Of a stretch of 60,170 nucleotides of DNA, positions 10,390 to 60,170 are shown one piece after another (within the stretch, counting starts at the first letter, position 1; every line of letters begins with the position of its first letter). The notes under the pieces are model-generated. The model saw nothing but the letters and a program-made list of their open reading frames with translations, was not told the DNA's origin and searched no databases. The stretch covers positions 1 to 60,170 of IMG/VR virus record IMGVR_UViG_3300031616_000006; one strand, written 5' to 3'. The position numbers were made by a program, and so were the translations under genes. The stretch comes from a virus.

Positions 10390-10421
10390 TCGCAAGGAAA
10401 ACATGGGTTATAATGAGACCC
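10390..10421 (+). promoter_or_regulatory. Early-type promoter, copy 1
   Basis: TCGCA, then AAAACATGG, then a perfect TATAAT (10409-10414) and GAGACCCC. The same arrangement recurs eight more times in the window. It heads the gene at 10441, whose product follows about 20 bases downstream of the expected start of transcription. Confidence 0.8.
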
Positions 10422-10962: not shown

Positions 10963-10994
10963 TCGCAAGAAATACACGTTTTATAATAGAAGGT
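10963..10994 (+). promoter_or_regulatory. Early-type promoter, copy 2
   Basis: TCGCA, AAATACACG and a perfect TATAAT (10982-10987), then AGAAGG in place of GAGACC. Transcription would start near 10993 and reach the T-run at about 11075 without passing a convincing open reading frame. Confidence 0.75.
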
Positions 10995-11631: not shown

Positions 11632-11664
11632 TCGCAAAAAATACACGGGCTTATATGAGACCCC
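11632..11664 (+). promoter_or_regulatory. Early-type promoter, copy 3
   Basis: TCGCA, AAATACACGG, a TTATATG -10-like box and GAGACCCC, ending about 28 bases before the ATG at 11692. Confidence 0.75.
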
Positions 11665-13094: not shown

Positions 13095-13126
13095 TCGCAG
13101 AAAAAACATGGGTTAATATGAGACCC
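13095..13126 (+). promoter_or_regulatory. Early-type promoter, copy 4
   Basis: TCGCA, AAAAAACATGGG, a TAATAT -10-like box and GAGACCC. It drives the gene at 13151. Confidence 0.78.
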
Positions 13127-13839: not shown

Positions 13840-14619
13840 ATGACGATCGCAGATCTGGCCCGGCGAGCATCCAAACTCGCCATAGACAATTCGCCCACGA
13901 TCCTTACCACCTTCGGTGTCGTGGGCACCATCACCACCGCATATCTCGTCGGTAAGGCTTCCTTCGAGGCGTCGGACGTCATTCGTCTCAAGGAAGCCGC
14001 CGACGAGGAACGCGGGATCGTCATCGGTAATCCTCGCGAGGTCATCAAGGACCGGGTCAAGCTGGTCTGGCGCCTGTATATCCCCTCAGCGACCATGGGC
14101 GTCGCGGCCGTCGCCTGTATCATCGGAGCCAATCGCGTGGGATCCCGCCGTGCCGCCGGCCTCGCGGCGGCATATTCCATCAGCGAGAAGGCCTTCGACC
14201 AGTACAAGCAGAAGGTCGTCGAGAAGATCGGCGAGCGCAAGGAAGAGCAAGTACGCGACGAGATCATGCAGGAACGCGTGAACGAGTCGTACACTCCGGG
14301 TATGGAGATCTACGGTCTCGAGAGCGGTGAGCTGTGCTACGACAAGTTCAGCGACCGCTACTTCAAGAACACCGTGGAGGGGATTCGTTCAGCCGAGAAC
14401 GATCTCAACTTCGCCTTGATCCACGACGGGTATGCCTCCCTGGCGGAGTTCTACCAGTTCCTGGGTCTACCGTCGCCGGCATATTCGGAGGGTGTCGGAT
14501 GGAATTCGGACCGCAAGCTCGAGGTCCGCATCTCGACCATGATGGCTCACGGGGAGAAGCCGTGCCTCTCCATGGACTTCAAGAACGAGCCAACCCCCGA
14601 CTACGGTCGATTTCGCTGA
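13840..14619 (+). CDS. DUF6353-like membrane protein A
   Basis: A 259-residue protein. Two membrane segments (about residues 20-38 and 84-105) enclose a charged loop. The following AAYSISEKAFDQYKQKVVEKIGE helix is the family's most conserved stretch, then a soluble C-terminal domain (LGLPSPAYSEGVGWNSD). The protein at 18320 shares this layout (AAYAGLDRAYKEYRQRVV; LGLPRTKAGAVVGW) and is a paralog. The family is frequent in actinophages and has no known function. Confidence 0.75.
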   Translation: MTIADLARRASKLAIDNSPTILTTFGVVGTITTAYLVGKASFEASDVIRLKEAADEERGIVIGNPREVIKDRVKLVWRLYIPSATMGVAAVACIIGANRVGSRRAAGLAAAYSISEKAFDQYKQKVVEKIGERKEEQVRDEIMQERVNESYTPGMEIYGLESGELCYDKFSDRYFKNTVEGIRSAENDLNFALIHDGYASLAEFYQFLGLPSPAYSEGVGWNSDRKLEVRISTMMAHGEKPCLSMDFKNEPTPDYGRFR

Positions 14620-15021
14620 CCGGAACGCTCTCAGGCGCATTCATATCCTCCTGAGTAGTGGATGCAGTACCGCAATGTACTTGGCGACACGTAACAGCGG
14701 GGATTGTGAGTAATCCTTGTACGGGGGGGTCGGCGTATAGTCAATAGTGAAAACTCCGTGGTCAAGCCATGATCGACGGTAAGTAGCGAAGACCGACGCT
14801 AGATCTTAAACGACAGACATGCGCCCTCTACTCTCGCAGGAAAAACATGCATTACAATGAGACCCAAAGCAGAACATCTTGCACTGAGCGAAGTGGCGCC
14901 TGAGTACATTCATTGAGAGTGGCTCAGGACAGGTGCATTCATTGAGAATGGCCGAAACTGATTTGGGTTTTCATTTTCTCGCCACCCCCGATCAAACAAA
15001 AACAACTCGAAAGGTAACACC
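14620..15021 (+). other. 400-bp non-coding stretch with promoter and RNA-like hairpins
   Basis: No gene is visible. It holds hairpins CTCAGG/CCTGAG (14630-14655), GGATT/AATCC (14701-14716) and, after the promoter at 14834, CCTGAG/CTCAGG (14899-14928). A direct repeat of RCATTCATTGAGARTGGC lies at 14906-14923 and 14935-14952. The transcript from 14834 would carry a leader of about 150 nt before the gene at 15022. The 14620-14830 part may be an untranslated RNA or decayed sequence. Confidence 0.5.
14834..14865 (+). promoter_or_regulatory. Early-type promoter, copy 5
   Basis: TCGCA, AAAAACATG, TACAAT and GAGACCC. It lies about 155 bases upstream of the next start codon, so it produces the longest 5' leader of the series. 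Confidence 0.78.
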
Positions 15022-18120: not shown

Positions 18121-18323
18121 GGAAAGCTCGACTTCTTGTGGTGGTCGACCTGGATCAGATGCCGGGAACGATGCATACCGCTCAGTCGGCCCAGGAAGTC
18201 ATTCAGAACGTTCTCTACCAGCGGATGTCTCACTACAAGCCGGCAGTGTCGTTGGCTCCCGCACCAACATTCGACAGTGCCGATATTCAGACGATCAACG
18301 CCGAAGGAACTGACGCAGCATGA
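18117..18323 (+). CDS. 68-residue hypothetical protein
   Basis: Overlaps its neighbours at both ends (ATGA). The sequence starts with a hydrophobic strand (ARLLVVVDLDQ), followed by a helix and a disordered acidic tail. The translational coupling with the DUF6353-like gene downstream suggests a shared role. No family recognised. Confidence 0.55.
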   Translation: MRKARLLVVVDLDQMPGTMHTAQSAQEVIQNVLYQRMSHYKPAVSLAPAPTFDSADIQTINAEGTDAA

Positions 18324-19249
18324 ACCTCGAAGCCATGAAGGACCTCGCCACGAGCAAGTTCGCTCGTCAGGTACTGGTCACCCAGAAGCACTCGCCCAAG
18401 ATCCTATTCGTCGCCGGTGTGGTCGGCGTCGTCGGGACTGTCGTCCTGGCCTGCCGGGCCACTCTGAACGTCGCCGAGGTTCTCGACCATCACGAGATCG
18501 ACGCAAAGCTCATCAAGGGCGAATACCCCGCCACGCAGTTGGCCGACGAGAACGTCGAGAAATCCCTCCGGAAGCTCAAGGTCAAGACCGGCCTCGAGAT
18601 CGCCAAGCTCTACGCCCCGGCCGTCGGCGTCGGCGTCCTGGCAGTGGGCGCTCTGACCGGATCGCACGTCGTCTTGTCCAAGCGCAACACCGCGGTCATG
18701 GCGGCCTATGCCGGGCTCGACCGAGCGTACAAGGAGTACCGTCAGCGCGTCGTCGCCGAGTACGGCCAGGATGCCGACCACAAGTTCGTCATCGGTGCCG
18801 AGCGCGTGCACGTCGAGGAGAAGACGGCCGACGGCAAAACCAAGATCACGACGAAGGACGTGGTCAAGAAGGACAGTCCGTTCAAGGGCGCCTCGCCCTA
18901 TGCGGTCCTCTTCGACGAGAACACCGCCCCGCACAAGTTCACGCGGGAACCCGGCATGAATGCCATGCTTCTCGGCGTGCAGCAGCAGCATGCGACTGAC
19001 AGGCTTCGTGGCCGGGGACACCTCTTCCTCAACGAGGTCCATGACATGCTGGGCCTTCCTCGCACCAAGGCCGGCGCGGTCGTGGGCTGGGTCTACCGCA
19101 ACGACAGCGAGGAGAAGACGGGCGACAACTACGTCAGCTTCGGCATCTCCGAGGGCGACTGGGAGCGGGGCGACGCGTTCGTCAACGGCGAAGAGCTCTC
19201 CGTCTGGCTGGACTTCAACGTCGACGGCGTCATCCTCGACCTGATCTGA
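18320..19249 (+). CDS. DUF6353-like membrane protein B
   Basis: A 309-residue paralog of the protein at 13840. Membrane segments near residues 28-46 and 96-112 flank a charged loop (DHHEIDAKLIKGEYPA). The conserved helix MAAYAGLDRAYKEYRQRVV follows, then a larger soluble domain. Conservation is visible at LGLPRTKAGAVVGWVYR near residue 245. Very strong G/C-ending codon use. Two copies of this family in one genome suggest a hetero-oligomer or divergent function; what it does is unknown. Confidence 0.75.
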   Translation: MNLEAMKDLATSKFARQVLVTQKHSPKILFVAGVVGVVGTVVLACRATLNVAEVLDHHEIDAKLIKGEYPATQLADENVEKSLRKLKVKTGLEIAKLYAPAVGVGVLAVGALTGSHVVLSKRNTAVMAAYAGLDRAYKEYRQRVVAEYGQDADHKFVIGAERVHVEEKTADGKTKITTKDVVKKDSPFKGASPYAVLFDENTAPHKFTREPGMNAMLLGVQQQHATDRLRGRGHLFLNEVHDMLGLPRTKAGAVVGWVYRNDSEEKTGDNYVSFGISEGDWERGDAFVNGEELSVWLDFNVDGVILDLI

Positions 19250-30463: not shown

Positions 30464-30496
30464 TCGCACGAAAAACATGGATTATTATGAGACCCC
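30464..30496 (+). promoter_or_regulatory. Early-type promoter, copy 6
   Basis: TCGCA, GAAAAACATGG, TATTAT and GAGACCCC, about 20 bases before the ATG at 30516. Confidence 0.78.
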
Positions 30497-30806: not shown

Positions 30807-30838
30807 TCGCAGAGAATACATGGGTTTATATGAGACCC
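30807..30838 (+). promoter_or_regulatory. Early-type promoter, copy 7
   Basis: TCGCA, GAATACATGGG, TTATATG and GAGACCCC, about 20 bases before the ATG at 30859. Confidence 0.78.
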
Positions 30839-34287: not shown

Positions 34288-34487
34288 GCAATCGTTTGTT
34301 CGCATCGGTATTCGTTTGGATCACCATCACCTCGGGTTGGTTTTGGCGAGTAATAGGAGAACACCGCACGCTTCCCGATAGCGTCAGGATTCCGGGGTGC
34401 TTACTAACCGGCTTCTTTCTAGTTTTCTGGCTGCGATACCAGTTAAATCGCAGCGACGGGAAGAGCGACGAGAGCGAGAGTGACTGA
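34284..34487 (+). CDS. 67-residue membrane protein
   Basis: Overlaps both neighbours. Two membrane helices (about residues 6-21 and 38-52) with a basic then acidic Ser/Asp/Glu-rich tail. The helicase GTG lies inside its last codons, so helicase translation may be coupled to it. Function unknown. Confidence 0.55.
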   Translation: MSNRLFASVFVWITITSGWFWRVIGEHRTLPDSVRIPGCLLTGFFLVFWLRYQLNRSDGKSDESESD

Positions 34488-36663
34488 GCTATACCCCCAC
34501 CAGGTCGAGGCCTTGAGGAAGCTGTCGAACGGCAAGATCTTGTGGGGTGGCGTTGGATCCGGCAAGACCCTAGTGGCTGCTGAGTACTACAAACTGAGAG
34601 AGGCACCCCGAGATGTCTACGTCATCACAACCGCCAAGAAACGAGACTCCCGAGACTGGCAAGAGCAGTTCTACGAGCTCGACGTCGGACCTGCCACCGG
34701 ACCTTCTGTCGGCGATCCAGGAGCTGTACGTGGCGGGCACGGTAACTCTGATCGAGGCGTACAAGATGAAGTGCTACTACATGCTGGAGGAAGAGGACGC
34801 GAAGGATCCAGGTCCCCAAGTTCTGGAGGAGTTCCGCAAGAGTCTCCCCCTTGCCGATTGGGATGCAAAGCCAACACGGGAGGGGTTCATCGCGATAGAC
34901 AAGATGAAAGCGGAGCGAGACCGCATCTTGTCGTCGGTCAAAGAGCAGAGCTTCATGGAGTTGAGGGAGCGTACCAAGCGACTTGTGGATGGTGCGACGA
35001 AGATCGTCTACAAGGACAACACGTTTCTCGACGACTCCATGACCATCACGGTCAAGGTACCGAATTCGTTCTTGCGGGGGATGCCTGTCAACGATGCTCG
35101 CCGGCTGGTGGGAATGCCGCCATTGCCCGAGATGTGGCCGGCGGAGCAAATCCAGACGGACTTGATCAGTCGGGAGTATGGTCCGCGTCCGACGGGAGAC
35201 ATGGCGATCGATCTTCCATGGCCAACGCATCCGAATCCGGAGATGGTTCGATACTTCAAGGAGAATCCTCCTATTCGAATGGGCCGTGTCACCGGCATGG
35301 TGGATGTGGAGGAGAACGACCAGGGTCTGACGGTCAACGGAAAGACCAATCCGTTCCCCTCGAAGCCGGATCATGTCCATCGGGAGGAGATCCAGACGAC
35401 GACCTCACTGTACGGGGGGATTCGCTGGGGAAGGCGGGACGATATCCCTGGGTCCTCACCGTCGACAGCTGGAACAACATCAACAAATACGCCGGCGTCG
35501 AAGGAGCCTTCTTCATCTTCGACGAGCAGCGACTTGTCGGATCCGGAGAGTGGACCAAGTCCTTCCTCCGCATCGCCCGACGAAACCACTGGATCCTGCT
35601 GACGGCTACACCCGGCGATACGTGGATGGATTACATTCCCGTCTTCGTCGCGAACGGCTTCTATAAGAACCGTACGGCGTTCAAGAGGGAACACGTCGTC
35701 TACAACACCTTCACGAAATTCCCGAAGGTGGACCGCTACATCAGTCAGGGAAAGCTGTTACGGCTGCGCAAAGGGCTTCTTGTGGAGATGCCGTTCCAGA
35801 AGCACACGATGCGACATTCGGTGGAGACCCCTCTCGCGTATGACAAGGTGGTCCTTGAGAAGGTGCTCAAGGATCGCTGGCATGTGTATGAGGAACGACC
35901 CTTGCGAGACGTCGGTGAGATGTTCTCGGTCGCACGTAAGGTCGTCAACAGCGACCCTAGCCGGCTGGAGATGGTGAAGGATCTATGGAAGAAACACCCG
36001 AAGCTGATCATCTTCTACAACTTCAACTACGAGCTGGAGGCGTTACGGGGCCTTATCGATACGTCCTCGTCGATGAGAACGGGCACGAACTCGTTCGAGA
36101 AGTCGTCGTTGACCAAGGGTGGCTTGCCGAGCCCATCAGAGAAACCATCATTGGCGAAGACGCGGACTGGGCATTCTTGGCGCCTCGAGAGCGAGAAAAC
36201 AAACTCTGGCGAGACAGCAAAAGCGAGGAGGGACGAGTGGACTACCTCAACCGGGACAAGTACCGAGAGATGCTCCAAGACTTCGCCGACCGGCACATGT
36301 TTGAACACTCAGACGTCTGGCGAGACTGGCAACGGGCAGTCGATGGCCTTAGCCGAGTGGAATGGCCACAAACACCAGCCGATTCCCTCAACGGACCGGT
36401 GGCTCTACCTGGTCCAGTACACCGCTGGAGCGGAGGGGTGGAATTGCATCGAGACGGATGCCATGATCATGTACTCCCTCAACTACTCATGGAAGGTCTC
36501 CGAGCAGGCGGAGGGACGTATTGATCGGCTGAACACTCCGTTCCGGGACTTGTGGTACTACAAGTTCACCTCCGATTCGTGGATAGATCAGGCCATTGAG
36601 AGGTCTCTGAGAGCTAAGGAGACCTTCAATGAGGCCAAGTATGTGGGACTGTTTCCGGGCTGA
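34480..36663 (+). CDS. SNF2/DEAD-like helicase interrupted by two out-of-frame coding segments
   Basis: One open frame of 727 codons from GTG 34480. Helicase motifs read in this frame: GGVGSGKT (residues 23-30), VITTAKKRDSRDW, DEQR (348-351), LLTATPGDTW, KLIIFYNFNYELEALRGL, YLVQYTAGAEGWNC and QAEGRIDRL. Two stretches, roughly codons 69-307 and 523-622, read in frame as Gly/Ser-rich non-protein-like sequence, while another frame encodes normal protein there. Without them the helicase would be about 390-400 residues, a usual length for compact phage helicases. Whether the full chain is made, or the segments are bypassed, spliced out or read by frameshifting, cannot be decided from sequence. A hairpin terminator overlaps the stop. 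Confidence 0.7.
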   Translation: MTELYPHQVEALRKLSNGKILWGGVGSGKTLVAAEYYKLREAPRDVYVITTAKKRDSRDWQEQFYELDVGPATGPSVGDPGAVRGGHGNSDRGVQDEVLLHAGGRGREGSRSPSSGGVPQESPPCRLGCKANTGGVHRDRQDESGARPHLVVGQRAELHGVEGAYQATCGWCDEDRLQGQHVSRRLHDHHGQGTEFVLAGDACQRCSPAGGNAAIARDVAGGANPDGLDQSGVWSASDGRHGDRSSMANASESGDGSILQGESSYSNGPCHRHGGCGGERPGSDGQRKDQSVPLEAGSCPSGGDPDDDLTVRGDSLGKAGRYPWVLTVDSWNNINKYAGVEGAFFIFDEQRLVGSGEWTKSFLRIARRNHWILLTATPGDTWMDYIPVFVANGFYKNRTAFKREHVVYNTFTKFPKVDRYISQGKLLRLRKGLLVEMPFQKHTMRHSVETPLAYDKVVLEKVLKDRWHVYEERPLRDVGEMFSVARKVVNSDPSRLEMVKDLWKKHPKLIIFYNFNYELEALRGLIDTSSSMRTGTNSFEKSSLTKGGLPSPSEKPSLAKTRTGHSWRLESEKTNSGETAKARRDEWTTSTGTSTERCSKTSPTGTCLNTQTSGETGNGQSMALAEWNGHKHQPIPSTDRWLYLVQYTAGAEGWNCIETDAMIMYSLNYSWKVSEQAEGRIDRLNTPFRDLWYYKFTSDSWIDQAIERSLRAKETFNEAKYVGLFPG
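34685..35400 (+). other. Out-of-frame coding segment 1 inside the helicase gene
   Basis: In the +1 frame relative to the helicase this stretch encodes about 235 protein-like residues (LSAIQELYVAGTVTLIEAYK, MRVGMPPLPEMW-type and HPNPEMVRYFKENPPIRMGR segments) with normal GC-rich third positions. The open frame runs 34613-35602, but residues outside the given limits mirror helicase codons and look artificial. A possible internal start is GTG 34730 with AGGAG seven bases upstream. No family recognised. Confidence 0.6.
36045..36345 (+). other. Out-of-frame coding segment 2 inside the helicase gene
   Basis: In the -1 frame relative to the helicase this stretch encodes about 100 protein-like residues (YVLVDENGHELVREVVV, WAFLAPRERENKLWRDSK, DKYREMLQDFADRHMFEHSD). 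No in-frame start codon exists at its beginning, so it cannot be an independent gene and would have to be reached by frameshift or represent an insertion that broke the frame. Confidence 0.58.
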
Positions 36664-36697: not shown

Positions 36698-36730
36698 TCC
36701 ACACGAACTCGGGCATAGTAGGTCAAGTCT

Positions 36731-36887
36731 GGCCTAGGTCCATGAAACGGACATTGTCTTTTTGGAATGGGTAAGTATGGTGTCATAAAGGGACAATCCT
36801 GGCCTGGGTCCATGAAACGGACATGCTAATCCGGCATAATGGGATAACTCGGGCCTAGGTCCATGAAACGGACACTGAAACGGACAT
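36731..36887 (+). repeat. Iterons (GGCCTRGGTCCATGAAACGGACA)
   Basis: Three near-identical 23-24-bp copies start at 36731, 36801 and 36852, followed by a partial fourth (TGAAACGGACAT, 36876-36887). Spacing is 70 and 51 bases. The core AAACGGACA occurs once more at 37098-37106, beyond the AT-rich zone. Confidence 0.9.
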
Positions 36888-36910: not shown

Positions 36911-36949
36911 TTAGATATCTTGTCGCAGGAAAAACAAGGCTTATCATAG
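36911..36949 (+). promoter_or_regulatory. Early-type promoter copy 8 with TTAGATATCTT box
   Basis: A TTAGATATCTT box is joined to TCGCA, GAAAAACAAGG and a TATCAT -10-like box (36942-36947). Transcription from here would run into the inverted repeat of the origin region and could prime replication or serve the gene at 37171. Confidence 0.6.
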
Positions 36950-36957
36950 TCCTCCAA

Positions 36958-37698: not shown

Positions 37699-37737
37699 AT
37701 ACCTTAACGCACGCAAAACACGGGTTATAATAGAAGG
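37695..37737 (+). promoter_or_regulatory. Early-type promoter copy 9 with TTAGATACCTTA box
   Basis: TTAGATACCTTA, CGCACGCAAAACACGGG, a perfect TATAAT (37726-37731) and AGAAGGG. It joins the upstream box of the late-type elements with the -10 box of the early-type promoters, and overlaps the end of the previous gene. It heads the nuclease and polymerase-like genes. Confidence 0.78.
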
Positions 37738-37809: not shown

Positions 37810-38130
37810 TTGCTTGAGGGTGAGTACAAAACCCGATTGACTAAGCGAATCTATCGCCGATTTGGTGAGGATCGCTGCATCGTCGTGCGTCTCGATTCAG
37901 CCCTTCTGCAAGGGATTCCCGACATGGGCGTGCTTTTCATTGGTGGATTTTGGGGACTCCTCGAGGCGAAGACAAGTCTGACGGCGAAGCGGCAACCGAA
38001 TCAATCGTACTATGTTGAGCACATGAACCGAATGTGTTTCGCGGCTTTCATCTGTCCCGAGAACGAAGAGGCCGTTCTACATGAGCTTCAACAAGAATCC
38101 GAGAATCATTGGGCAGCACGCCTTTCTTAG
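37810..38130 (+). CDS. VRR-NUC-like PD-(D/E)xK nuclease
   Basis: A 106-residue protein from TTG 37810 behind GAGAGGAGG; a TTG start is unusual, but this ribosome site is the best present. GIPDMGVLFIGGFWGLLEAK contains the catalytic Asp and the ExK of the PD-(D/E)xK fold. The later NQSYYVEHMNRMCFAAFICP completes the pattern of small phage nucleases thought to resolve branched DNA. The end overlaps the next gene by 50 bases. Confidence 0.72.
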   Translation: MLEGEYKTRLTKRIYRRFGEDRCIVVRLDSALLQGIPDMGVLFIGGFWGLLEAKTSLTAKRQPNQSYYVEHMNRMCFAAFICPENEEAVLHELQQESENHWAARLS

Positions 38131-38635
38131 TCCAAGCAACTATCAGTGGCTGGATTACGACGAGGACAAACTGACCCGCGTCTTCTTCGAGAAACAACAG
38201 ACAAAGCGAGGCGACGAGCTTCATGCTTACGCCCAGCGCGCCATCGACCTCGGTATCCGACAAGCCGAGAACAACACCACACTGAGCTTGTACATCAACG
38301 ACGCCATCGGTCATCGCATGCAAGCCGAGGTACCGCTGTACTACTCTGACGAATGCTTCGGTACTGCTGACGCTTGTGGATTTCGCGAGAACCATCTTCG
38401 CATCCACGATCTCAAGACCGGTAAGATCGTAGCCAGCATGAAGCAGCTGCTGATCTATGCCGGCATCTTCTGCTTCGAGTACCGCATGTCTCCCAACGAG
38501 ATCAGCATCAGTCTGCGTATCTACCAGAACGATGCCATCACGGAGATGATCCCCGATCCCTCAGACATCCTGCTAGTCATGAGTCGAATCAAGACGCAAG
38601 CTGAACGGATCGCGTACCTGCGAGAGGAGGACTAG
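38081..38635 (+). CDS. RecB/Cas4-like exonuclease
   Basis: A 184-residue protein. The GTADACGFRENHLRIHDLKTGK stretch, read in parts, carries the catalytic Asp and the D-x-K of the RecB nuclease family, and the following QLLIYAGIFCFEY holds the expected Gln-Tyr motif. It would trim DNA ends in recombination or replication. It overlaps the VRR-NUC gene, and both belong to the unit started at 37695. No Cys cluster of the true Cas4 type is present. Confidence 0.75.
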   Translation: MSFNKNPRIIGQHAFLSPSNYQWLDYDEDKLTRVFFEKQQTKRGDELHAYAQRAIDLGIRQAENNTTLSLYINDAIGHRMQAEVPLYYSDECFGTADACGFRENHLRIHDLKTGKIVASMKQLLIYAGIFCFEYRMSPNEISISLRIYQNDAITEMIPDPSDILLVMSRIKTQAERIAYLREED

Positions 38636-38637
38636 TA

Positions 38638-41421
38638 GTGGTTGTCATTCCGGAAGATGAATACCTCGCACAACAAGGCGTTCTTGCCCACTACGGAACA
38701 CCTCGCCATTCAGGTCGCTATCCGTGGGGTTCTGGCGGTGACGAAACGAGTCAGCGAAACCACACGCTCCTGACGACGGCCAACGAGCTGAAGAAGCAGG
38801 GTCTCAGTGAGACTGAGATTGCTCGTGGTCTAGGTGTCACTACGACGCAGTTGCGTGACATCAGGACAGTCGCTCTCAACGAGGCCAAGCAAGACCAGAT
38901 CCACATGGCTGCGAAGCTCAAAGAGAAGGGCCTGTCGAACGGCGCCATCGCTGCCCGTATGCGAGAGGCCGGCTACAAGGTCTCGGGTGAATCCCAGGTT
39001 CGCGCTCTCCTCAAGCCAAGCCAGGAAGATCGGATCAAGGTCCTCGACAACGTCACGGACACCCTGCGCAAAGCTGTGGATGAGAAAGGCTTCATCGACG
39101 TCGGTGCTGGTGTGGAGTTCCAACTCAACATCACCAGTACCAAGCTTCGCAGTTCGCTGCAGAAGTTGAAGGATGAAGGGTACGTGGTACGCGAGGTCAA
39201 GATCGAGCAGTTGGGTACAGGCAAACAAACCAACATGCGCGTTCTGGCCAAGCCTGATACATCGTGGGGCGAGGTTCAGCGCAACCGCCACAACATCCAG
39301 CAACTACAGGATTATTCGGATGACGGCGGTCGCACGATCCTGAACTTGATCCCACCCAAGTCCATCAGCTCAAAGCGGATCGGCATTCGCCACGAGGAAG
39401 ACGGCGGTGCTGCTGCCGACGGCGTGATCTACGTTCGTCCTGGCGTCTCTGACGTCTCGCTTGGTGGCAAACGGTATGGCCAGGTGCGTGTCGCTGTCGA
39501 CGGCACACACTATCTCAAGGGCATGGCCATCTACAAGGATGATCTGCCGGCCGGCGTAGATCTGGTGTTCAATACAAACAAGAAGAACACCGGCAACAAG
39601 CTTGACGCCATGAAGCCGATGAAGCGTACACGGGCGGCAGAGGACGATCCTAGTAAGCCCGAGAAATTCACCGGACCCGTCGATCAAGACAACCCTTTCG
39701 GTGCGAGCATTAGTCGGCAGATCGGCGATCGTGATCCGGCAACGGGTAAGATCAAACATCTCACCTCGGTCATGAACATCGTCAACGACGAGGGTAAGTG
39801 GGACGAATGGTCGAAGAGCCTATCGTCCCAGATGTTGTCGAAGCAGAAACCGGCCCTGGCCAAGGAGCAACTCGACCAGACCTACACCAAGAAGAAGGCC
39901 GAGCTCGACAGCATTCTGTCATTGACGAATCCATCGGTTCGCAAGAAACTACTTGAAGCCTACGCCGATGGCGCTGATTCGTCTGCGGTCCACCTCAAGG
40001 CCGCTCATCTTCCTCGTCAGAAGACACAAGTGATACTACCCTTGACCGACATCAAGCCTACTGAAGTCTTTGCTCCTGGCTTCAGAAACGGCGAACGTGT
40101 CGCTCTTGTACGGTTCCCTCACGGTGGTACATTCGAGATTCCTGAACTCACCGTGAACAACAAGAATCCAGCCGGCCGAAAGCTCATAGGCCCGGATGCA
40201 CAAGACGCGATCGGCATACATCCTAAAGTTGCCGAACGTTTGTCTGGTGCCGACTTCGATGGCGACAACGTGTTGGTCATACCCAACAACTTGGGTAAGA
40301 TCAGGTCTACCGCAGCCTTGGAGGGTTTGAGAAACTTCGACCCGAAATCTAAGTATCCTCCTTACGAGGGTATGAAGGCGATGACCGAACGCGAAAAGGG
40401 ATTTGAGATGGGCAAGATCTCGAATCTCATCACAGACATGACCATCCAGGGCGCTAACACCGAAGAACTCGCTCGTGCGGTGCGTCATTCCATGGTCGTC
40501 ATCGATGCTGAAAAGCACAAGCTGGACTTCCGTCGTTCGCACGAAGACAATGGAATCCCGGCTCTGACGAAGAAGTACCAGTCAGGAACGTCAAGTGGTG
40601 GTGCATCGACGCTCATCTCGAGAGCCACGTCACGGCTGGATGTTGGCGATCGGAAAGAAAGGCCTGCTGCACAAGGCGGACCTATCGATGCTGCGACTGG
40701 CAAGAGGGTGTTCGTGCCCACTAACAAGTCGTGGACTGATGCGTCAGGGAAAGTGCACTTCCGAACTCAGCAATCCACCAAGCTTGCCGAGACAGACAAC
40801 GCACATACCCTGTCGTCGGGCACTGTCATCGAGAAGGTGTATGCGGATCACTCGAATCGGTTGAAATCGTTGGCCAACCAAGCACGCAAAGAGTTGGTCA
40901 CTATCAAACCGAAACGGTATTCGCCTTCTGCAAAGATCGCGTTCACGTCCCAGGTTGAGACCCTAAACGCTAAATTGAACCTGGCTCTGCGAAACGCCCC
41001 CCTCGAAAGACAAGCCCAGGTCTTTGCAAACGCCACTGTTCGACTGAAGATCCAAGCCAATCCTTCCTTGAAGATCAAGGAGAACAAGGCTGAACTCAAG
41101 AGAGTAAAGTCTCAGGCTCTTGCGGCAGCCCGCATTAGGACTGGTGCGGAGAAGAACAAGTTCGAGATCACTGATCCAGAATGGGCAGCGATTCAGGCAG
41201 GAGCCATCGCACCCAGTAAGTTGGATCAGATCCTCAACCATGCGGATCTGGACCGAATCAAGGAACTGGCAACACCAAGAACGCCGATCAAGATGAAGAC
41301 ATCTGATGAGGCTAAGGCTAGGTCCCTACATGCAAGAGGCTACACATGGGCCGAAGTAGCCGACACTCTCGGTGTGTCTGTGTCCACGATCCAGAAGACC
41401 CTCAAGGTGGAAGGAGACTGA
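38638..41421 (+). CDS. Putative single-chain double-psi beta-barrel RNA polymerase with HTH domains
   Basis: A 927-residue protein. Residues 539-543 are DFDGD in the context GADFDGDNVLVIPNN, the metal-binding signature of two-barrel RNA polymerases (bacterial beta-prime, YonO-like phage enzymes). The preceding RVALVRFPHGGTFEIP and HPKVAERL match the beta-prime order. Conserved KISNLITDMTIQGA and ARAVRHSMVVIDAEKHKLD follow. Residues about 45-110 hold two HTH-like repeats and residues about 890-922 an HTH (GYTWAEVADTLGVSVSTIQK). The N-terminus carries HYGTPRHSGRYPWGSG, a tag seen on other phage proteins. Start is GTG 38638. It may transcribe late genes; activity is inferred from motifs. Confidence 0.72.
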   Translation: MVVIPEDEYLAQQGVLAHYGTPRHSGRYPWGSGGDETSQRNHTLLTTANELKKQGLSETEIARGLGVTTTQLRDIRTVALNEAKQDQIHMAAKLKEKGLSNGAIAARMREAGYKVSGESQVRALLKPSQEDRIKVLDNVTDTLRKAVDEKGFIDVGAGVEFQLNITSTKLRSSLQKLKDEGYVVREVKIEQLGTGKQTNMRVLAKPDTSWGEVQRNRHNIQQLQDYSDDGGRTILNLIPPKSISSKRIGIRHEEDGGAAADGVIYVRPGVSDVSLGGKRYGQVRVAVDGTHYLKGMAIYKDDLPAGVDLVFNTNKKNTGNKLDAMKPMKRTRAAEDDPSKPEKFTGPVDQDNPFGASISRQIGDRDPATGKIKHLTSVMNIVNDEGKWDEWSKSLSSQMLSKQKPALAKEQLDQTYTKKKAELDSILSLTNPSVRKKLLEAYADGADSSAVHLKAAHLPRQKTQVILPLTDIKPTEVFAPGFRNGERVALVRFPHGGTFEIPELTVNNKNPAGRKLIGPDAQDAIGIHPKVAERLSGADFDGDNVLVIPNNLGKIRSTAALEGLRNFDPKSKYPPYEGMKAMTEREKGFEMGKISNLITDMTIQGANTEELARAVRHSMVVIDAEKHKLDFRRSHEDNGIPALTKKYQSGTSSGGASTLISRATSRLDVGDRKERPAAQGGPIDAATGKRVFVPTNKSWTDASGKVHFRTQQSTKLAETDNAHTLSSGTVIEKVYADHSNRLKSLANQARKELVTIKPKRYSPSAKIAFTSQVETLNAKLNLALRNAPLERQAQVFANATVRLKIQANPSLKIKENKAELKRVKSQALAAARIRTGAEKNKFEITDPEWAAIQAGAIAPSKLDQILNHADLDRIKELATPRTPIKMKTSDEAKARSLHARGYTWAEVADTLGVSVSTIQKTLKVEGD

Positions 41422-41684
41422 TGGACTTCTACATGCTCACCACTACAGACAACCCATTCAGTCCCGTAACACAGTACGATGAGTGGCACACATGGGACAT
41501 GGCACAAGGGTACTGGTCGAACTCTCTCTTGGCTAGAGTGGTTCGTACCTCGCCAGACTTGTCGGATGCTGATCAAGATCTGGCGATTCAGGAGGCGATC
41601 GATGAGATCGTTACCGAGAATGTTTCTGGAGTACATACAAAGGTCAGAGCAAGCTCGGAAGCGACTGTCCTATCTTCCTCTTGA
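41421..41684 (+). CDS. Small conserved protein coupled to the polymerase-like gene
   Basis: An 87-residue protein whose ATG shares a base with the preceding TGA. MDFYMLTTTDNPFSPVTQYD, GYWSNSLLARVVRTS and LAIQEAIDEIVTENVSG are conserved in phages that carry a similar polymerase-like protein, from memory of such loci. The tight coupling suggests a partner subunit. Its C-terminal 22 residues overlap the next frame. Confidence 0.62.
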   Translation: MDFYMLTTTDNPFSPVTQYDEWHTWDMAQGYWSNSLLARVVRTSPDLSDADQDLAIQEAIDEIVTENVSGVHTKVRASSEATVLSSS

Positions 41685-41963: not shown

Positions 41964-42073
41964 AGGCTGGTAGCTCAACTGGCAGAGCAGCGGGTCTAGT
42001 GGCGGTCGGGTCGCGCCCGATACGTGCTTGTAATTCATCCCGTCAGTTGTGGGTTCGACTCCCACTCAGTCTC
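41964..42073 (+). tRNA. tRNA-like gene with oversized anticodon loop
   Basis: Acceptor AGGCTGG/TCAGTCT (7 pairs with two G-U), TA at positions 8-9, a D-arm GCTC/GAGC and a perfect T-arm GTGGG-TTCGACT-CCCAC are all in place. The anticodon stem GCGGG/CCCGT fits a normal 5-base variable loop, but its loop is 44 bases instead of 7 and contains a hairpin TCGGG/CCCGA. No CCA is encoded. It could be a decayed tRNA, a tRNA with an unknown insertion, or a tRNA mimic. Confidence 0.6.
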
Positions 42074-42077
42074 CTTG

Positions 42078-42217
42078 GGGATGGTAGCTCAGTTTGGTTG
42101 AGCATCGACAAGAACGTGAGCCATCGGTTCGATTCCGGCCGGGCAATTGGGCTCGTAGTTCAGTGGTAGAACGCACGATACGTCGAAGGTACGTTGGTTC
42201 AAATCCGACCCATCCCA
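42078..42217 (+). tRNA. Composite tRNA-like sequence with two D-arms and two T-arms
   Basis: GGGATGG (42078-42084), TA and D-arm GCTC/GAGC open the element; a T-arm-like GG-TTCGATT-CC (42126-42136), then GGGCTCG, TA and a second D-arm GTTC/GAAC (42158-42172) follow; a perfect T-arm GTTGG-TTCAAAT-CCGAC and CCATCCC (42210-42216) end it. The last acceptor strand pairs perfectly with the first, not with the nearer GGGCTCG. Neither half shows a normal anticodon arm; a weak TAC-GTCGAAG-GTA hairpin would present CGA. It may be two decayed tRNAs or a nested tRNA-like fold. Confidence 0.5.
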
Positions 42218-42867: not shown

Positions 42868-42873
42868 CTGGGG

Positions 42874-42917
42874 TTAGATACCTTAGCGGAGAAAACACGG
42901 CCTGTCCAGTTTTGCCT
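42874..42917 (+). promoter_or_regulatory. Late-type promoter-like element, copy 1
   Basis: TTAGATACCTTAGCG, GAGAAAACACGG, CCTGTCCAGTTTTGCCT. It is nearly identical over 43 bases to 44034-44077. It keeps the GAAAACAYGG core of the early promoters, but TGTCCA replaces TATAAT. It precedes the virion genes from 42959 on. Confidence 0.65.
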
Positions 42918-42958
42918 GTTGATCATGAAATACCCACGTACAAGAAAGGACTCGATTC

Positions 42959-44030: not shown

Positions 44031-44033
44031 CGG

Positions 44034-44077
44034 TTAGATACCTTAGCGCAGAAAACATGGACTGTCCAGTTTTGCCT
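44034..44077 (+). promoter_or_regulatory. Late-type promoter-like element, copy 2
   Basis: TTAGATACCTTAGCG, CAGAAAACATGG, ACTGTCCAGTTTTGCCT, differing from 42874-42917 at about four positions; a shared GATC-TGAA follows both. It precedes the gene at 44104. Confidence 0.65.
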
Positions 44078-44103
44078 CGTGATCTTGAAGAAGGGCTTTT
44101 CTG

Positions 44104-48214: not shown

Positions 48215-48586
48215 GTGGCTTCAGTTCTCACAAGCATCAAGAAGAGTCTCGGTATCGGTGAAGACGACACCGCTTTCGACCCCGATATCGTGATGTACAT
48301 CAACACGGTCTTCTCGACGTTGAACCAGTTGGGTGTCGGTCCGGATGCAGGCTTCCTGATCGAGGACAAAGAAGCCACGTGGGAATCTTTTCTCGGTACC
48401 GACCCGCGTCTCAACTTTGTACCAACGTACATGCTGTTGCGAGTTCGTCTTCTGTTCGATCCTCCGGGAACGTCCTTCACTATTGACGCCATCAAGACCC
48501 AAATCTCGGAGTACGAATGGCGCATCAACGTGTTCCGGGAGGTGCAACTGTGGCCGTATCCGCCGGTAGTGGTTCCGGAGGTGTAG
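48215..48586 (+). CDS. Head-tail connector protein (gp6-like)
   Basis: A 123-residue protein from GTG 48215 behind CGAAAGGG. It resembles gp6-like adaptors: helices with DDTAFDPDIVMYINTVFSTL and FVPTYMLLRVRLLFDPP, and the closing RINVFREVQLWP. The location before the large terminase, and not after the capsid gene, is not the common order. It would ring the portal and seat the tail. Confidence 0.78.
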   Translation: MASVLTSIKKSLGIGEDDTAFDPDIVMYINTVFSTLNQLGVGPDAGFLIEDKEATWESFLGTDPRLNFVPTYMLLRVRLLFDPPGTSFTIDAIKTQISEYEWRINVFREVQLWPYPPVVVPEV

Positions 48587-49713
48587 ACCCGGCGAAGTCC
48601 TACGTCATCGTGTTGATTCCCGAGAAGAACGACGAAGTCTGGCAGGTTTCCAGTGAGAAAGTTCCTCACTTGACTCTCTGCTATCTCGGGGGTCAGCTCG
48701 ACAATGTACAACGCGTTACTCAGTTCATTGGTCATCTCGCTGCGACATCGCTGTCGAGAAGTACATACGGCGTAGATCATCGCGGCGTCCTTGGGGACAA
48801 ATCCGCAGACGTCCTGTTCTTCAACGATCACGTTGCTGCCATTCTCGAGACGACTCGTGTTCAGCTTCTGAGCAATATCGACATCGCCACGGCCTACGGC
48901 ATGACCGAACAGTTCGACACGTGGAAGCCGCATCTGACCCTGGGGTGGCCTGACGCGCCGGCGAAGACCAACATCGAGGGAATACCGTTCGCGGTAACTT
49001 TCGACCGCATCGCATTGTGGACAGGAGATTTCGAAGGAGTTGAATTTCCGTTGAAGAACGACAACGAAGAACTGTCCATGGCAGCCAAGGGCGAAGCATT
49101 CTTCCAGCATTTCGGCGTCAAGGGCATGCACTGGGGCGTACGCCGCGAGGATTCGGGTGGTTCGGCTACAAGTACCAAAGACGCTAAGGCCGAGAAGGCG
49201 ACCACAACGGCCCGATCGAACGACGCCAAACTCTCGACGATGCAAGAAAAGGATCGACGAGCGCAAACGGCCCGATCGAACGACGCCAAACTCTCGACGA
49301 TGCAAGAAAAGGATCGACGAGCGCAAACGGCCGACAAGCTCAAGCAGAAGCGACTCGTCGATCTCAAGTCGTCCAAGGACTCTCGCGAGGCCGGCTTTGT
49401 CAAGACGAAGGCCAAGATCTCCGGCGTCAACACCCTCTCGAACCAGGATCTTCAAACTCTCATCACGCGAATGAACCTCGAACGTCAGTTCAAGGATCTG
49501 AAGAAGATCGAGCATGAGGACACCGTCATCGGGATGGGTAAGAAGTGGGCCGGCAACTTCCTCAACGATGTTGCCAAGGACACCGCGGCGTCGTGGCTCA
49601 AGCGTCCCGGCTCGAATGCTTCCGGTCGCACGAGTGCTCGTGCATATTCGTGGGGCCAGCAAGTCGGCGGCGCCATCGATGGCACTGTAGTTCCTAAGGC
49701 GATCTCAGCGTGA
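48550..49713 (+). CDS. 2H phosphoesterase fused to a KGMHWG-tagged virion protein
   Basis: A 387-residue protein; GTG 48550 has GGGAGG upstream. Residues about 15-165 form a 2H phosphoesterase domain with two H-x-T motifs, HLTLCYLG and PHLTLGW. The family includes 2',5'-bond-cleaving enzymes and the anti-CBASS enzyme Acb1. Residue about 180 starts HFGVKGMHWGVRRED, a short motif common in phage head proteins near portal genes. The rest is Lys/Asp/Ala-rich coiled coil with a 20-residue perfect repeat. It may be packaged in the head and injected. The target molecule is unknown. Confidence 0.72.
   Translation: MAVSAGSGSGGVDPAKSYVIVLIPEKNDEVWQVSSEKVPHLTLCYLGGQLDNVQRVTQFIGHLAATSLSRSTYGVDHRGVLGDKSADVLFFNDHVAAILETTRVQLLSNIDIATAYGMTEQFDTWKPHLTLGWPDAPAKTNIEGIPFAVTFDRIALWTGDFEGVEFPLKNDNEELSMAAKGEAFFQHFGVKGMHWGVRREDSGGSATSTKDAKAEKATTTARSNDAKLSTMQEKDRRAQTARSNDAKLSTMQEKDRRAQTADKLKQKRLVDLKSSKDSREAGFVKTKAKISGVNTLSNQDLQTLITRMNLERQFKDLKKIEHEDTVIGMGKKWAGNFLNDVAKDTAASWLKRPGSNASGRTSARAYSWGQQVGGAIDGTVVPKAISA
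49206..49325 (+). repeat. Perfect 60-bp tandem duplication
   Basis: Two identical in-frame copies (49206-49265 and 49266-49325) inside the phosphoesterase fusion gene, each encoding 20 residues. The lack of any silent change implies a very recent event or active maintenance. Confidence 0.95.
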
Positions 49714-50014: not shown

Positions 50015-51757
50015 ATGGCCCTGTCGAACACGGCGACGCCCTATTACTATGGACAATTCCGTGATTCGGTTCTTCGAGGAGAAATCCCTGTTAATCGGGA
50101 AATTTCTCTGGAAATGAACCGTATCGATGCGCTCATCGCCAACCCCAATATCTACTACGACGATCAAGCGATCGAAGGATTCATTCTCTATTGCGAGAAT
50201 GAGTTGACGTTGACCGACGGTAGCGATCTTCATCTCCTCCCCTCGTTCAAGCTCTGGGCAGAGCAGATCTTCGGGTGGTACTTCTTCGTTGAGCGTAGCG
50301 TGTACGAGCCAACACCGGATAATCATGGTGGCCATTACGTCACTAAGGTTATCAAGAAAAGACTCACTACCAAGCAATACCTGATCGTCGCCCGTGGTGC
50401 GGCCAAGTCGATGTACGCGTCTCTCATTCAAAGTTTCTTCTTGAATGTCGACACCCAAACGACGCATCAGATTACCACCGCGCCGACGATGAAACAGGCT
50501 GAGGAAGTGATGTCGCCGATCCGTACGGCCATCACGCGCTCGCGAGGACCACTCTTCAAGTTCTTGACGGATGGATCGCTGCAGAACACGACGGGTTCGA
50601 AAGCCAACCGCGTGAAGCTTGCATCGACGAAGAAGGGCATCGAGAACTTCCTCACCGGCTCGATCATCGAGATTCGGCCGATGTCCATCAATAAACTCCA
50701 GGGCCTTCGGCCTAAGACGTCAACGGTGGATGAGTGGCTGTCGGGCGACCTCCGCGAGGATGTCATCGGTGCCATCGAACAGGGTGCATCCAAGTTGGAC
50801 GATTGGCTCATCGTCGCGATCAGTTCGGAAGGAACCGTTCGTAACGGGTCAGGCGATACCGTCAAAATGGAACTCGCCACCATCCTTCGTGGCGACTACC
50901 AGGCCCCGCACGTCTCGATCTTCCACTACAAGCTCGACGAACTCGACGAAGTAAACCACCCTCGTATGTGGGTCAAAGCAAATCCGAATCTCGGTAAGAC
51001 GGTTACGTACGACACGTACCAACTGGATGTGGAACGAGCCGAGAAAGCTCCTGCTTCCCGGAACGACATCCTTGCCAAGCGATTCGGAATTCCCATGGAG
51101 GGCTACACGTACTTCTTCACCTACGAGGAAACGATCCCGTTCCGGCGTCGTCACTTCGACAACATGCCGTGTGCTCTCGGGGCCGACCTTTCGCAGGGCG
51201 ACGACTTCTGTGCGTTCACATTCTTGTTCCCCGTGCGGGACGGGTTCGGCGTTAAGACGCGGAGTTACATTACCAGTCTGACGTTGACGAAGCTTCCTGG
51301 AGCCATGCGTCACAAGTACGATGAGTTCATCAACGAAGGCAGTCTCCACGTGCTTGAGGGCTCGGTCCTCGACATGATGGACGTGTATGATGATCTCGAT
51401 CGTTTCATCTTGGCGCAGGGATACGACATTCGAGCATTCGGATTCGACCCCTACAACGCCAAGGAATTCGTGACTCGTTGGGAAGCGGAGAACGGTCCTT
51501 TCGGAATCGAGAAAGTCATCCAGGGATCCCGGACCGAATCAGTTCCCCTGGGTGAATTGAAGATCCTTGCGGGCGAGCGTCAGCTTTATTTCGACGAAGA
51601 CCTGATGCAATTCGCCATGGGTAACGCCATCACCCTCGAAGACACGAACGGTAACCGCAAGCTTCTCAAGACCCGATACCAAGACAAGATCGACAACGTG
51701 GCCGCCCTGATGGACGCCTATATCGCATGGAAGCTCAACAAGGAGGCATTCGAATGA
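50015..51757 (+). CDS. Terminase large subunit
   Basis: A 580-residue packaging motor. ATG 50015 is eight bases after GAGGAGG; a TTG two codons earlier is less likely. The ATPase domain has VARGAAKSMYASL (Walker A-type), and STVDEWLSG as the Walker B region. The nuclease domain begins at ALGADLSQGDDFCA (first catalytic Asp), with further acidic residues downstream (FGFDPYNAKEF). It cuts and pumps DNA into the prohead with the small subunit at 43273. Confidence 0.93.
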   Translation: MALSNTATPYYYGQFRDSVLRGEIPVNREISLEMNRIDALIANPNIYYDDQAIEGFILYCENELTLTDGSDLHLLPSFKLWAEQIFGWYFFVERSVYEPTPDNHGGHYVTKVIKKRLTTKQYLIVARGAAKSMYASLIQSFFLNVDTQTTHQITTAPTMKQAEEVMSPIRTAITRSRGPLFKFLTDGSLQNTTGSKANRVKLASTKKGIENFLTGSIIEIRPMSINKLQGLRPKTSTVDEWLSGDLREDVIGAIEQGASKLDDWLIVAISSEGTVRNGSGDTVKMELATILRGDYQAPHVSIFHYKLDELDEVNHPRMWVKANPNLGKTVTYDTYQLDVERAEKAPASRNDILAKRFGIPMEGYTYFFTYEETIPFRRRHFDNMPCALGADLSQGDDFCAFTFLFPVRDGFGVKTRSYITSLTLTKLPGAMRHKYDEFINEGSLHVLEGSVLDMMDVYDDLDRFILAQGYDIRAFGFDPYNAKEFVTRWEAENGPFGIEKVIQGSRTESVPLGELKILAGERQLYFDEDLMQFAMGNAITLEDTNGNRKLLKTRYQDKIDNVAALMDAYIAWKLNKEAFE

Positions 51758-52185
51758 GAGTTGAGGGTGAGAAGCCTTCCTTGGATGAGCTTGCTCACTT
51801 TGGTATCAAGGGCATGAAATGGGGCATTCGAAGTGCGGATCAACCACTGAATGCCAACTACACCTCGCGAATGCGCTCCAATGATCGACAAGTTCATGGT
51901 AAACGCGCAGTCGAGCGGATCAACACCCATCTGAACGAGGGCGGAACGCGTGATGATGCGCTGCGTCGAGAAGATATTCGTAATGCTCGCCAACGTCTTC
52001 TCGCCGCCGGCGCACTGTACGCTACTTCGTTGTTGGTGACGCATGGTTCGGTTCAAGTGTCCACTATGGCCGAAAACAATCGTACTGCTGCTAGAGACGC
52101 TGCGGTTGGCATCGGCTCCAAATCAACTCCGCTGAACTACATCAAACCTCGCGGCGGGGTCCACACTATTACTACGATGAAGTAG
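51754..52185 (+). CDS. Small virion protein with KGMKWG tag
   Basis: A 143-residue protein whose ATG overlaps the terminase stop. It begins with LAHFGIKGMKWGIRSADQ (residues 12-29), the same motif as in the 48550 protein. The rest is helical and basic with one hydrophobic stretch (LLAAGALYATSLLV). The motif plus position between terminase and portal suggests a head-internal protein. The function of the motif is not established. Confidence 0.65.
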   Translation: MRVEGEKPSLDELAHFGIKGMKWGIRSADQPLNANYTSRMRSNDRQVHGKRAVERINTHLNEGGTRDDALRREDIRNARQRLLAAGALYATSLLVTHGSVQVSTMAENNRTAARDAAVGIGSKSTPLNYIKPRGGVHTITTMK

Positions 52186-60043: not shown

Positions 60044-60170
60044 CATGACCTACACGCAAACCGTCATCGACAACTTCAACGACAACTCCTTCAACACGTC
60101 GATTTGGGCAACCCCGTCTGGCGCTACGGGCATCGCTGAGACATCGGCCGCACTTCGCATCTCGGCTTTG
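60044..60170 (+). repeat. Second copy of the terminal overlap (5' end of the adhesin gene)
   Basis: Identical to bases 1-127. It holds the start codon (60045) and first 42 codons of the gene described at 2-730, and so shows how the contig closes. Confidence 0.93.

Follow-up and report, generated by a model that had tools for sequence, protein, structure and literature searches.

Phage P23-45 encodes gp64, a proven phage RNA polymerase, while gp66 of the crAss-like phage phi14:2 and gp96 of P23-45 are two-barrel phage RNA polymerases (RNAPs) packaged in the virion for early use (PMC10770324). YonO of SPbeta, a temperate Bacillus phage (Bacillota), is a single-chain two-barrel RNAP with an aspartate triad (PMC5467207). 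Hundreds of sequenced phages have a gene of another family, PHROG 4291, annotated either as "helix-turn-helix protein" or as "RNA-dependent RNA polymerase"; no measured activity for any relative was found in the literature searched, where the family is uncharacterised. The gene analysed here belongs to PHROG 4291 and lies in a 60,170-nt stretch of viral DNA, henceforth referred to as the window. We propose, with a probability of roughly 0.58, that its product is a packaged one-chain DNA-dependent RNA polymerase, loaded by a tag, that fires the early genes and its own operon from a conserved motif. The enzyme would combine a two-barrel catalytic core with built-in helix-turn-helix (HTH) domains that replace a sigma factor. 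The tag, HYGxxRxSGRYPWGSG, would load it into the virion, it would enter the cell together with the DNA, and it would start transcription of the early genes and of the VRR-Nuc/exonuclease/RNAP operon at TCGCRNGAAWWACAYG..YTATAATGA.

The ORF check gave a 927-residue frame on the + strand with a GTG start and a stop codon at 41419-41421. The gene and its predicted parts are as follows:

38638-41421, + strand: predicted single-chain two-barrel RNA polymerase, PHROG 4291 member (927 aa, GTG start; profile, models, Foldseek)
38767-39012, + strand: N-terminal HTH-like helices (residues 44-125), candidate promoter-reading module (profile match, secondary structure)
39016-39249, + strand: winged-HTH-like stretch (residues 127-204; Pfam HTH_24 at 162-183 with E=6e-4, below the cut-off; secondary structure)
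39481-39522, + strand: QVR...KG motif (residues 282-295), candidate DPBB-B lysine motif (invariant Q282, R284, K294 and G295; QVR...KG also in P23-45 gp64)
40021-40284, + strand: predicted DPBB-A catalytic barrel (residues 462-549; strand order, hhalign to P23-45 gp64 in register)
40252-40266, + strand: DFDGD metal-binding triad (residues 539-543; invariant in 102 sequences)
40387-40518, + strand: two conserved helices past the barrel (residues 584-627, EMGKISNLITDM...HSMVVIDAEKH), candidate bridge-helix region (alignment, secondary structure)
41299-41406, + strand: C-terminal HTH (residues 888-923; Pfam)

The frame and motif positions given in an earlier, sequence-only reading were reproduced, with DFDGD at residues 539-543, RFPHGG at 492-497, HPKVAERL at 528-535 and HYGTPRHSGRYPWGSG at 18-33. 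The HTH signal it had placed at both chain ends was also recovered, by Pfam matches at the C-terminus (HTH_23/HTH_38, residues about 896-923, E about 6e-7 to 9e-7) and by the helices and winged-HTH-like stretch at the N-terminus. The match to PHROG 4291 was full-length (E=0, 1263 bits; residues 12-923 against profile positions 8-906 of 909). In an alignment of 102 sequences, the members of which are 42-77% identical to the window protein, SGADFDGD (536-543), including D539, D541 and D543, was invariant, as were QxR (282, 284) and KG (294-295). Chance was ruled out because of the end-to-end match and the invariance of S536-D543 across the 102 sequences. A catalytically dead descendant, retained as a DNA-binding structural protein, would agree with most annotations, which mention an HTH protein only, and with the structural label of the homologue in Lactococcus phage 1706; yet both the DFDGD triad and QxR...KG are unchanged throughout the 102 diverse sequences, which would be unexpected for a dead enzyme, and this explanation was judged barely credible.

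Relatives were detected by tblastn in 250 of 50,697 phage records. Most are from phages of Arthrobacter, Gordonia and Streptomyces, and outlying ones are from Lactococcus and Faecalibacterium phages. These relatives are labelled "helix-turn-helix DNA-binding protein", "RNA-dependent RNA polymerase" or hypothetical. One scan of genome contigs identified 138 relatives, mostly in prophages of Lachnospiraceae and Oscillospiraceae. The window protein is a further member of a widespread, already annotated family.

Two AlphaFold2 models, with 68 and 102 sequences as input, had mean pLDDT values of 81.9 and 87.3 and pTM values of 0.71 and 0.79. The tag region was disordered and the remainder well predicted in both. 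The best PDB matches identified by Foldseek for both models were QDE-1 (E=7.7e-9 and 5e-7), the non-virion RNAP gp62 of P74-26 (E=1e-6 to 1e-5) and plant RDR2 (E about 1e-6 to 2e-5), and the further matches listed were likewise two-barrel polymerases, for the most part the large subunits of multisubunit RNAPs. All top matches were two-barrel polymerases over 518-965 columns, but the whole-chain TM-scores were just 0.2-0.4, so the kinship rests on the core of the fold and not on the whole shape. Comparison of the family profile with P23-45 gp64 by hhalign aligned 76 columns at 33% identity, in register exactly over the catalytic barrel, with a weak score (E=0.0044 for one comparison, probability 8%). 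By eye, gp64 holds QVR...KG at the place corresponding to the candidate DPBB-B motif, which in the window protein is N-terminal to DPBB-A. The single-chain two-barrel-type polymerase claimed in the sequence-only reading is supported by the exclusively two-barrel top matches and by the barrel alignment, while the comparison with YonO that it had proposed gave no detectable sequence similarity, only an unrelated stretch of 20-21 residues by hhalign. A PDB sequence search with the single protein or the family profile was discarded as it returned just HTH fragments and chance matches. The protein very likely belongs to the two-barrel RNAP class and would be an active polymerase.

The name used in PHROG and RefSeq implies an RNA-dependent RNA polymerase that copies RNA templates, and the best structural match is indeed of the QDE-1/RDR fold. 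Such an activity is highly improbable for this protein: the window derives from a dsDNA phage without an RNA stage, the tested single-chain phage relatives of the fold are DNA-dependent (PMC5467207, PMC10770324), and a conserved DNA motif and HTH domains accompany the protein.

The polymerase gene shares its operon with the following genes:

37810-38130, + strand: VRR-Nuc-type endonuclease, first gene of the RNAP operon (domain call; synteny in isolates)
38081-38635, + strand: Cas4/RecB-type exonuclease, second gene of the RNAP operon (domain call; synteny in isolates)
41421-41684, + strand: small conserved ORF of 87 aa, possible partner, overlapping the RNAP stop codon (TGATG); orf76 in phage 1706

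The gene order VRR-Nuc, Cas4-type exonuclease, RNAP and small ORF is common to isolates, at the right genome end, and a homologue of the small ORF was recognisable after the RNAP in 151 of 155 loci. The small ORF downstream of the RNAP may encode a partner protein.

Several further observations were made in the window. The gap upstream of the operon (36709-36877) contains three 48-nt repeat copies, 73-100% identical, with CCTRGGTCCATGAAACGGACA in common. In the SNF2-type helicase frame at 34480-36663 the best PHROG stretch begins only at residue 328, and a 329-aa ORF in another frame (34613-35602, without Pfam match) overlaps the unmatched SNF2 part, as if by insertion. Two tRNA-like genes, at 41964-42073 (110 nt, with an apparent insert) and 42149-42217, scored 43 and 37 bits with Rfam and were not called by ARAGORN. 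Paralogous DUF6353 proteins are encoded at 13840-14619 and 18320-19249 in the early region. Positions 1-127 and 60044-60170 form an identical 127-bp direct repeat; the assembly is thus probably circular and complete, with its opening point among the tail genes.

Repeats in the window gave the lead to an intergenic promoter-like motif of roughly 30 bp, TCGCRNGAAWWACAYG..YTATAATGAGACC, always on the transcribed strand; it recurs in this orientation in seven related contigs and in eight actinobacterial isolates. The copies and variants in the window are:

10390-10419, + strand: motif copy, early region (repeats, weight-matrix scan)
10963-10992, + strand: motif copy, early region (repeats, weight-matrix scan)
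11632-11661, + strand: motif copy, early region (repeats, weight-matrix scan)
13095-13124, + strand: motif copy, early region (repeats, weight-matrix scan)
14834-14863, + strand: motif copy, early region (repeats, weight-matrix scan)
30464-30493, + strand: motif copy (repeats, weight-matrix scan)
30807-30836, + strand: motif copy (repeats, weight-matrix scan)
36923-36952, + strand: motif copy (weight-matrix scan)
37707-37736, + strand: motif copy upstream of the VRR-exo-RNAP operon, ACGCACGCAAAACACGGGTTATAATAGAAG (motif scan)
42872-42929, + strand: motif variant without TATAAT, D18 pair, copy 1 (repeats)
44032-44089, + strand: motif variant without TATAAT, D18 pair, copy 2 (repeats)

A weight matrix was derived from 14 seed sites in the window and the seven related contigs and scanned over 18 phage genomes and contigs; the isolate genomes supplied no seed sites and were new material for the scan. 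Across the window, the seven contigs and the eight actinobacterial isolates, 139 sites were found on the transcribed strand versus 3 on the opposite one, and shuffled sequences gave numbers near 0. The isolates with the motif infect Arthrobacter, Gordonia, Curtobacterium, Streptomyces, Microbacterium, Rhodococcus and Bifidobacterium. A single site, immediately upstream of the RNAP operon, was present in Faecalibacterium phage FP_oengus, and the motif was absent from Lactococcus phage P078 in the weight-matrix scan. A Bacillota version, CGCR..AAAAACA....CTTTTATG, was observed immediately upstream of the RNAP operon on the + strand in 49 of 73 distinct prophage regions and on the - strand in none (0.05 expected). 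Within the viral, mainly actinobacterial set, the strict pattern picked up the operon promoter in just 13 of 77 upstream regions, and many others had variant spacers before TATAATAGAAGG. The exact long form was present in 39 viral contigs, 23 of them with an RNAP sequence; among those without one, three exceed 30 kb and end before the RNAP locus, and the remainder are short pieces of about 16 kb or less. A literature search found no papers on this motif in phages.

In the motif logo, CGC (columns 2-4) and C (column 13) were 99-100% conserved, ACA at columns 12-14 forming with CGC the most conserved block, and TATAAT occupied columns 20-25. Owing to the TATAAT, host RNAP with a phage factor could use the actinobacterial motif, and a phage regulator could read it instead of the polymerase. 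The motif would then be a host-RNAP promoter combined with a phage activator or repressor site, and the protein would make primers or work in recombination alongside the VRR-Nuc and Cas4 nucleases encoded next to it, in keeping with its strict synteny with both nuclease genes and with its N- and C-terminal HTH domains. We consider this quite unlikely. The most conserved block falls in what would be the variable spacer of a sigma-70 promoter, the logo shows no conserved TTGACA-like -35 block, the spacing from CGC to TATAAT does not match a -35 element of the sigma-70 type, and the Bacillota motif retains CGC..AAAAACA although its -10-like part drifts to TTTTAT. We predict recognition of the conserved motif by the window polymerase and regard it as probable.

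Motif sites cluster past the tail genes and ahead of the DNA polymerase, often directly before VRR-Nuc. In the window and six near-complete relatives, none of 61 sites fell within the TerL-to-tail span, though this span accounts for 36% of the sequence (binomial P about 2e-12). The sequence-only reading suggested that the polymerase could transcribe the virion genes; the motif positions do not support this, since the sites precede early genes and the operon of the polymerase itself, and early genes are therefore the predicted targets. This placement, the Bacillota operon sites and the presence of RNAP sequence on contigs with the long form suggest that the motif belongs to the PHROG 4291 polymerase. 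The D18 pair, intergenic, 90% identical and similar to the early motif apart from the missing TATAAT, sits in the left arm before the terminase, and its copy at 42872 is the transcription template proposed earlier. No copies of the pair were found in the other scanned genomes.

The proposed loading signal and two window proteins with a look-alike tag are located as follows:

38689-38736, + strand: N-terminal tag HYGTPRHSGRYPWGSG (residues 18-33), proposed virion-loading signal (near-invariant in the family; disordered in the models)
48517-49713, + strand: 2H-phosphoesterase-like protein with an internal DUF7211 tag (HFGVKGMHWGVRR), adjoining the terminase (DUF7211 E=7e-10; 2_5_RNA_ligase2 E=2e-4, below the cut-off)
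51727-52185, + strand: small protein with an N-terminal DUF7211-type tag (HFGIKGMKWGIR), between terminase and portal (tag search)

Among 134 distinct sequences, the S, G, R, P, G, S and G of the tag LxHYGxxRxSGRYPWGSG were 100% conserved and H, Y and W 98-99%; the sequences were gathered by the pattern SGR(Y/F)P(W/Y/F)G, so part of this conservation was preset. SGR(Y/F)P was found in 74 of 80 prophage proteins, and tblastn with the tag returned essentially the PHROG 4291 family alone. Several proteins of the same phages, often encoded near terminase and portal, bear the look-alike DUF7211 tag (PF23847), H(Y/H/F)G(V/I)xG(M/Q)KWGVR. The two tags have only LxH(Y/H)G and WG in common, and the DUF7211 profile had no match to the polymerase at E up to 10. 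Enzyme domains on DUF7211-tagged proteins include a papain-fold Gln_amidase (E=1e-11 in L071, 1.8e-6 in L152), a GNAT acetyltransferase (E=8e-13 in L049) and a 2H phosphoesterase (E=6e-7 in Pepy6 gp013, weaker in the window). A literature search found no phage papers on the SGRYPWGSG tag or on a DUF7211-type tag. Separately, the tagged 2H-phosphoesterase gene contains a perfect 60-nt tandem duplication (49206-49325), and in Rhodococcus phage ReqiPepy6 (14185-19935) seven adjacent genes between terminase and portal, gp015-gp021, each start with a DUF7211 tag and are otherwise varied.

In the record of Lactococcus phage 1706, ORF75, the RNAP homologue (36% identity), is labelled "structural protein", as is ORF7, which bears two DUF7211-like tags. 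We infer that this database label came from virion proteomics, because small early-region proteins of 1706 bear the same label. The Faecalibacterium phage papers contained no virion proteomics of a polymerase homologue. Co-occurrence of the tag, the RNAP and a capsid-protease fusion was dropped as independent evidence, since their host distributions are nearly identical and mark one lineage. The near-invariant disordered tag, its head-module look-alikes and the 1706 label lend circumstantial support to a role of the tag in virion loading. These, together with the conserved promoter-like motif, are what the present analysis adds to the sequence-only reading.

The polymerase might instead be a non-virion enzyme like YonO or P23-45 gp64, being made early by host RNAP, then transcribing early or middle genes and its own operon from the motif, with the tag serving, for example, membrane or nucleoid docking. 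Its gene is indeed located in the replication half and has a motif copy of its own, its closest solved phage relative is the non-virion gp62 of P74-26, and the actinobacterial motif contains a host-like TATAAT. The deposition of 1706 ORF75 as structural, the resemblance of the near-invariant disordered tag to tags of head-module proteins and the marking of early genes by the motif argue against this alternative, which we regard as rather unlikely. Packaging of the polymerase in the virion of the window phage is, from this analysis, the somewhat more probable outcome.

A broader and doubtful, though possible, extension is that throughout this lineage of Actinomycetota and Bacillota phages LxH(Y/H)G...WG tags form a general virion-cargo address. 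The RNAP would be packed and injected along with enzyme-like proteins (papain-fold glutamine deamidase, GNAT acetyltransferase, 2H phosphoesterase) and would read a sigma-independent promoter, the CGC..AAAAACA core of which is kept across two phyla. If a packaged polymerase with its own promoter is confirmed, the current labels conceal a self-starting transcription system, the matched enzyme and promoter would offer a new tool in one chain of about 100 kDa, and the pair would be a tractable model of sigma-free promoter recognition in two-barrel polymerases. The motif makes the prediction testable now using existing isolates.

With respect to known systems, QDE-1 and plant RDR2 are the closest overall PDB folds to the window protein, but they are eukaryotic RNAi enzymes and match with TM-scores of only about 0.3. 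The virion-carried phi14:2 gp66 and P23-45 gp96 have chains far larger than the window protein or fused to a tape measure, and the fold match to phi14:2 gp66 was weak (Foldseek E=0.015). We know of no short tag on either. YonO transcribes late genes, whereas the motif of the window phage marks early genes. P23-45 gp64 and P74-26 gp62 are likewise single-chain two-barrel RNAPs, related to the window protein by the fold match, the in-register catalytic barrel and QVR...KG; gp64, at 616 aa, differs in having neither the tag nor terminal HTH domains. The nearest relatives are the homologues in the phage isolates Scap1 and Rima of Streptomyces, 1706 of Lactococcus (ORF75) and FP_oengus of Faecalibacterium (gp55), which belong to the same PHROG 4291 family with full-length homology at 36-57% identity, carry the same tag and, in most cases, share the same operon order.
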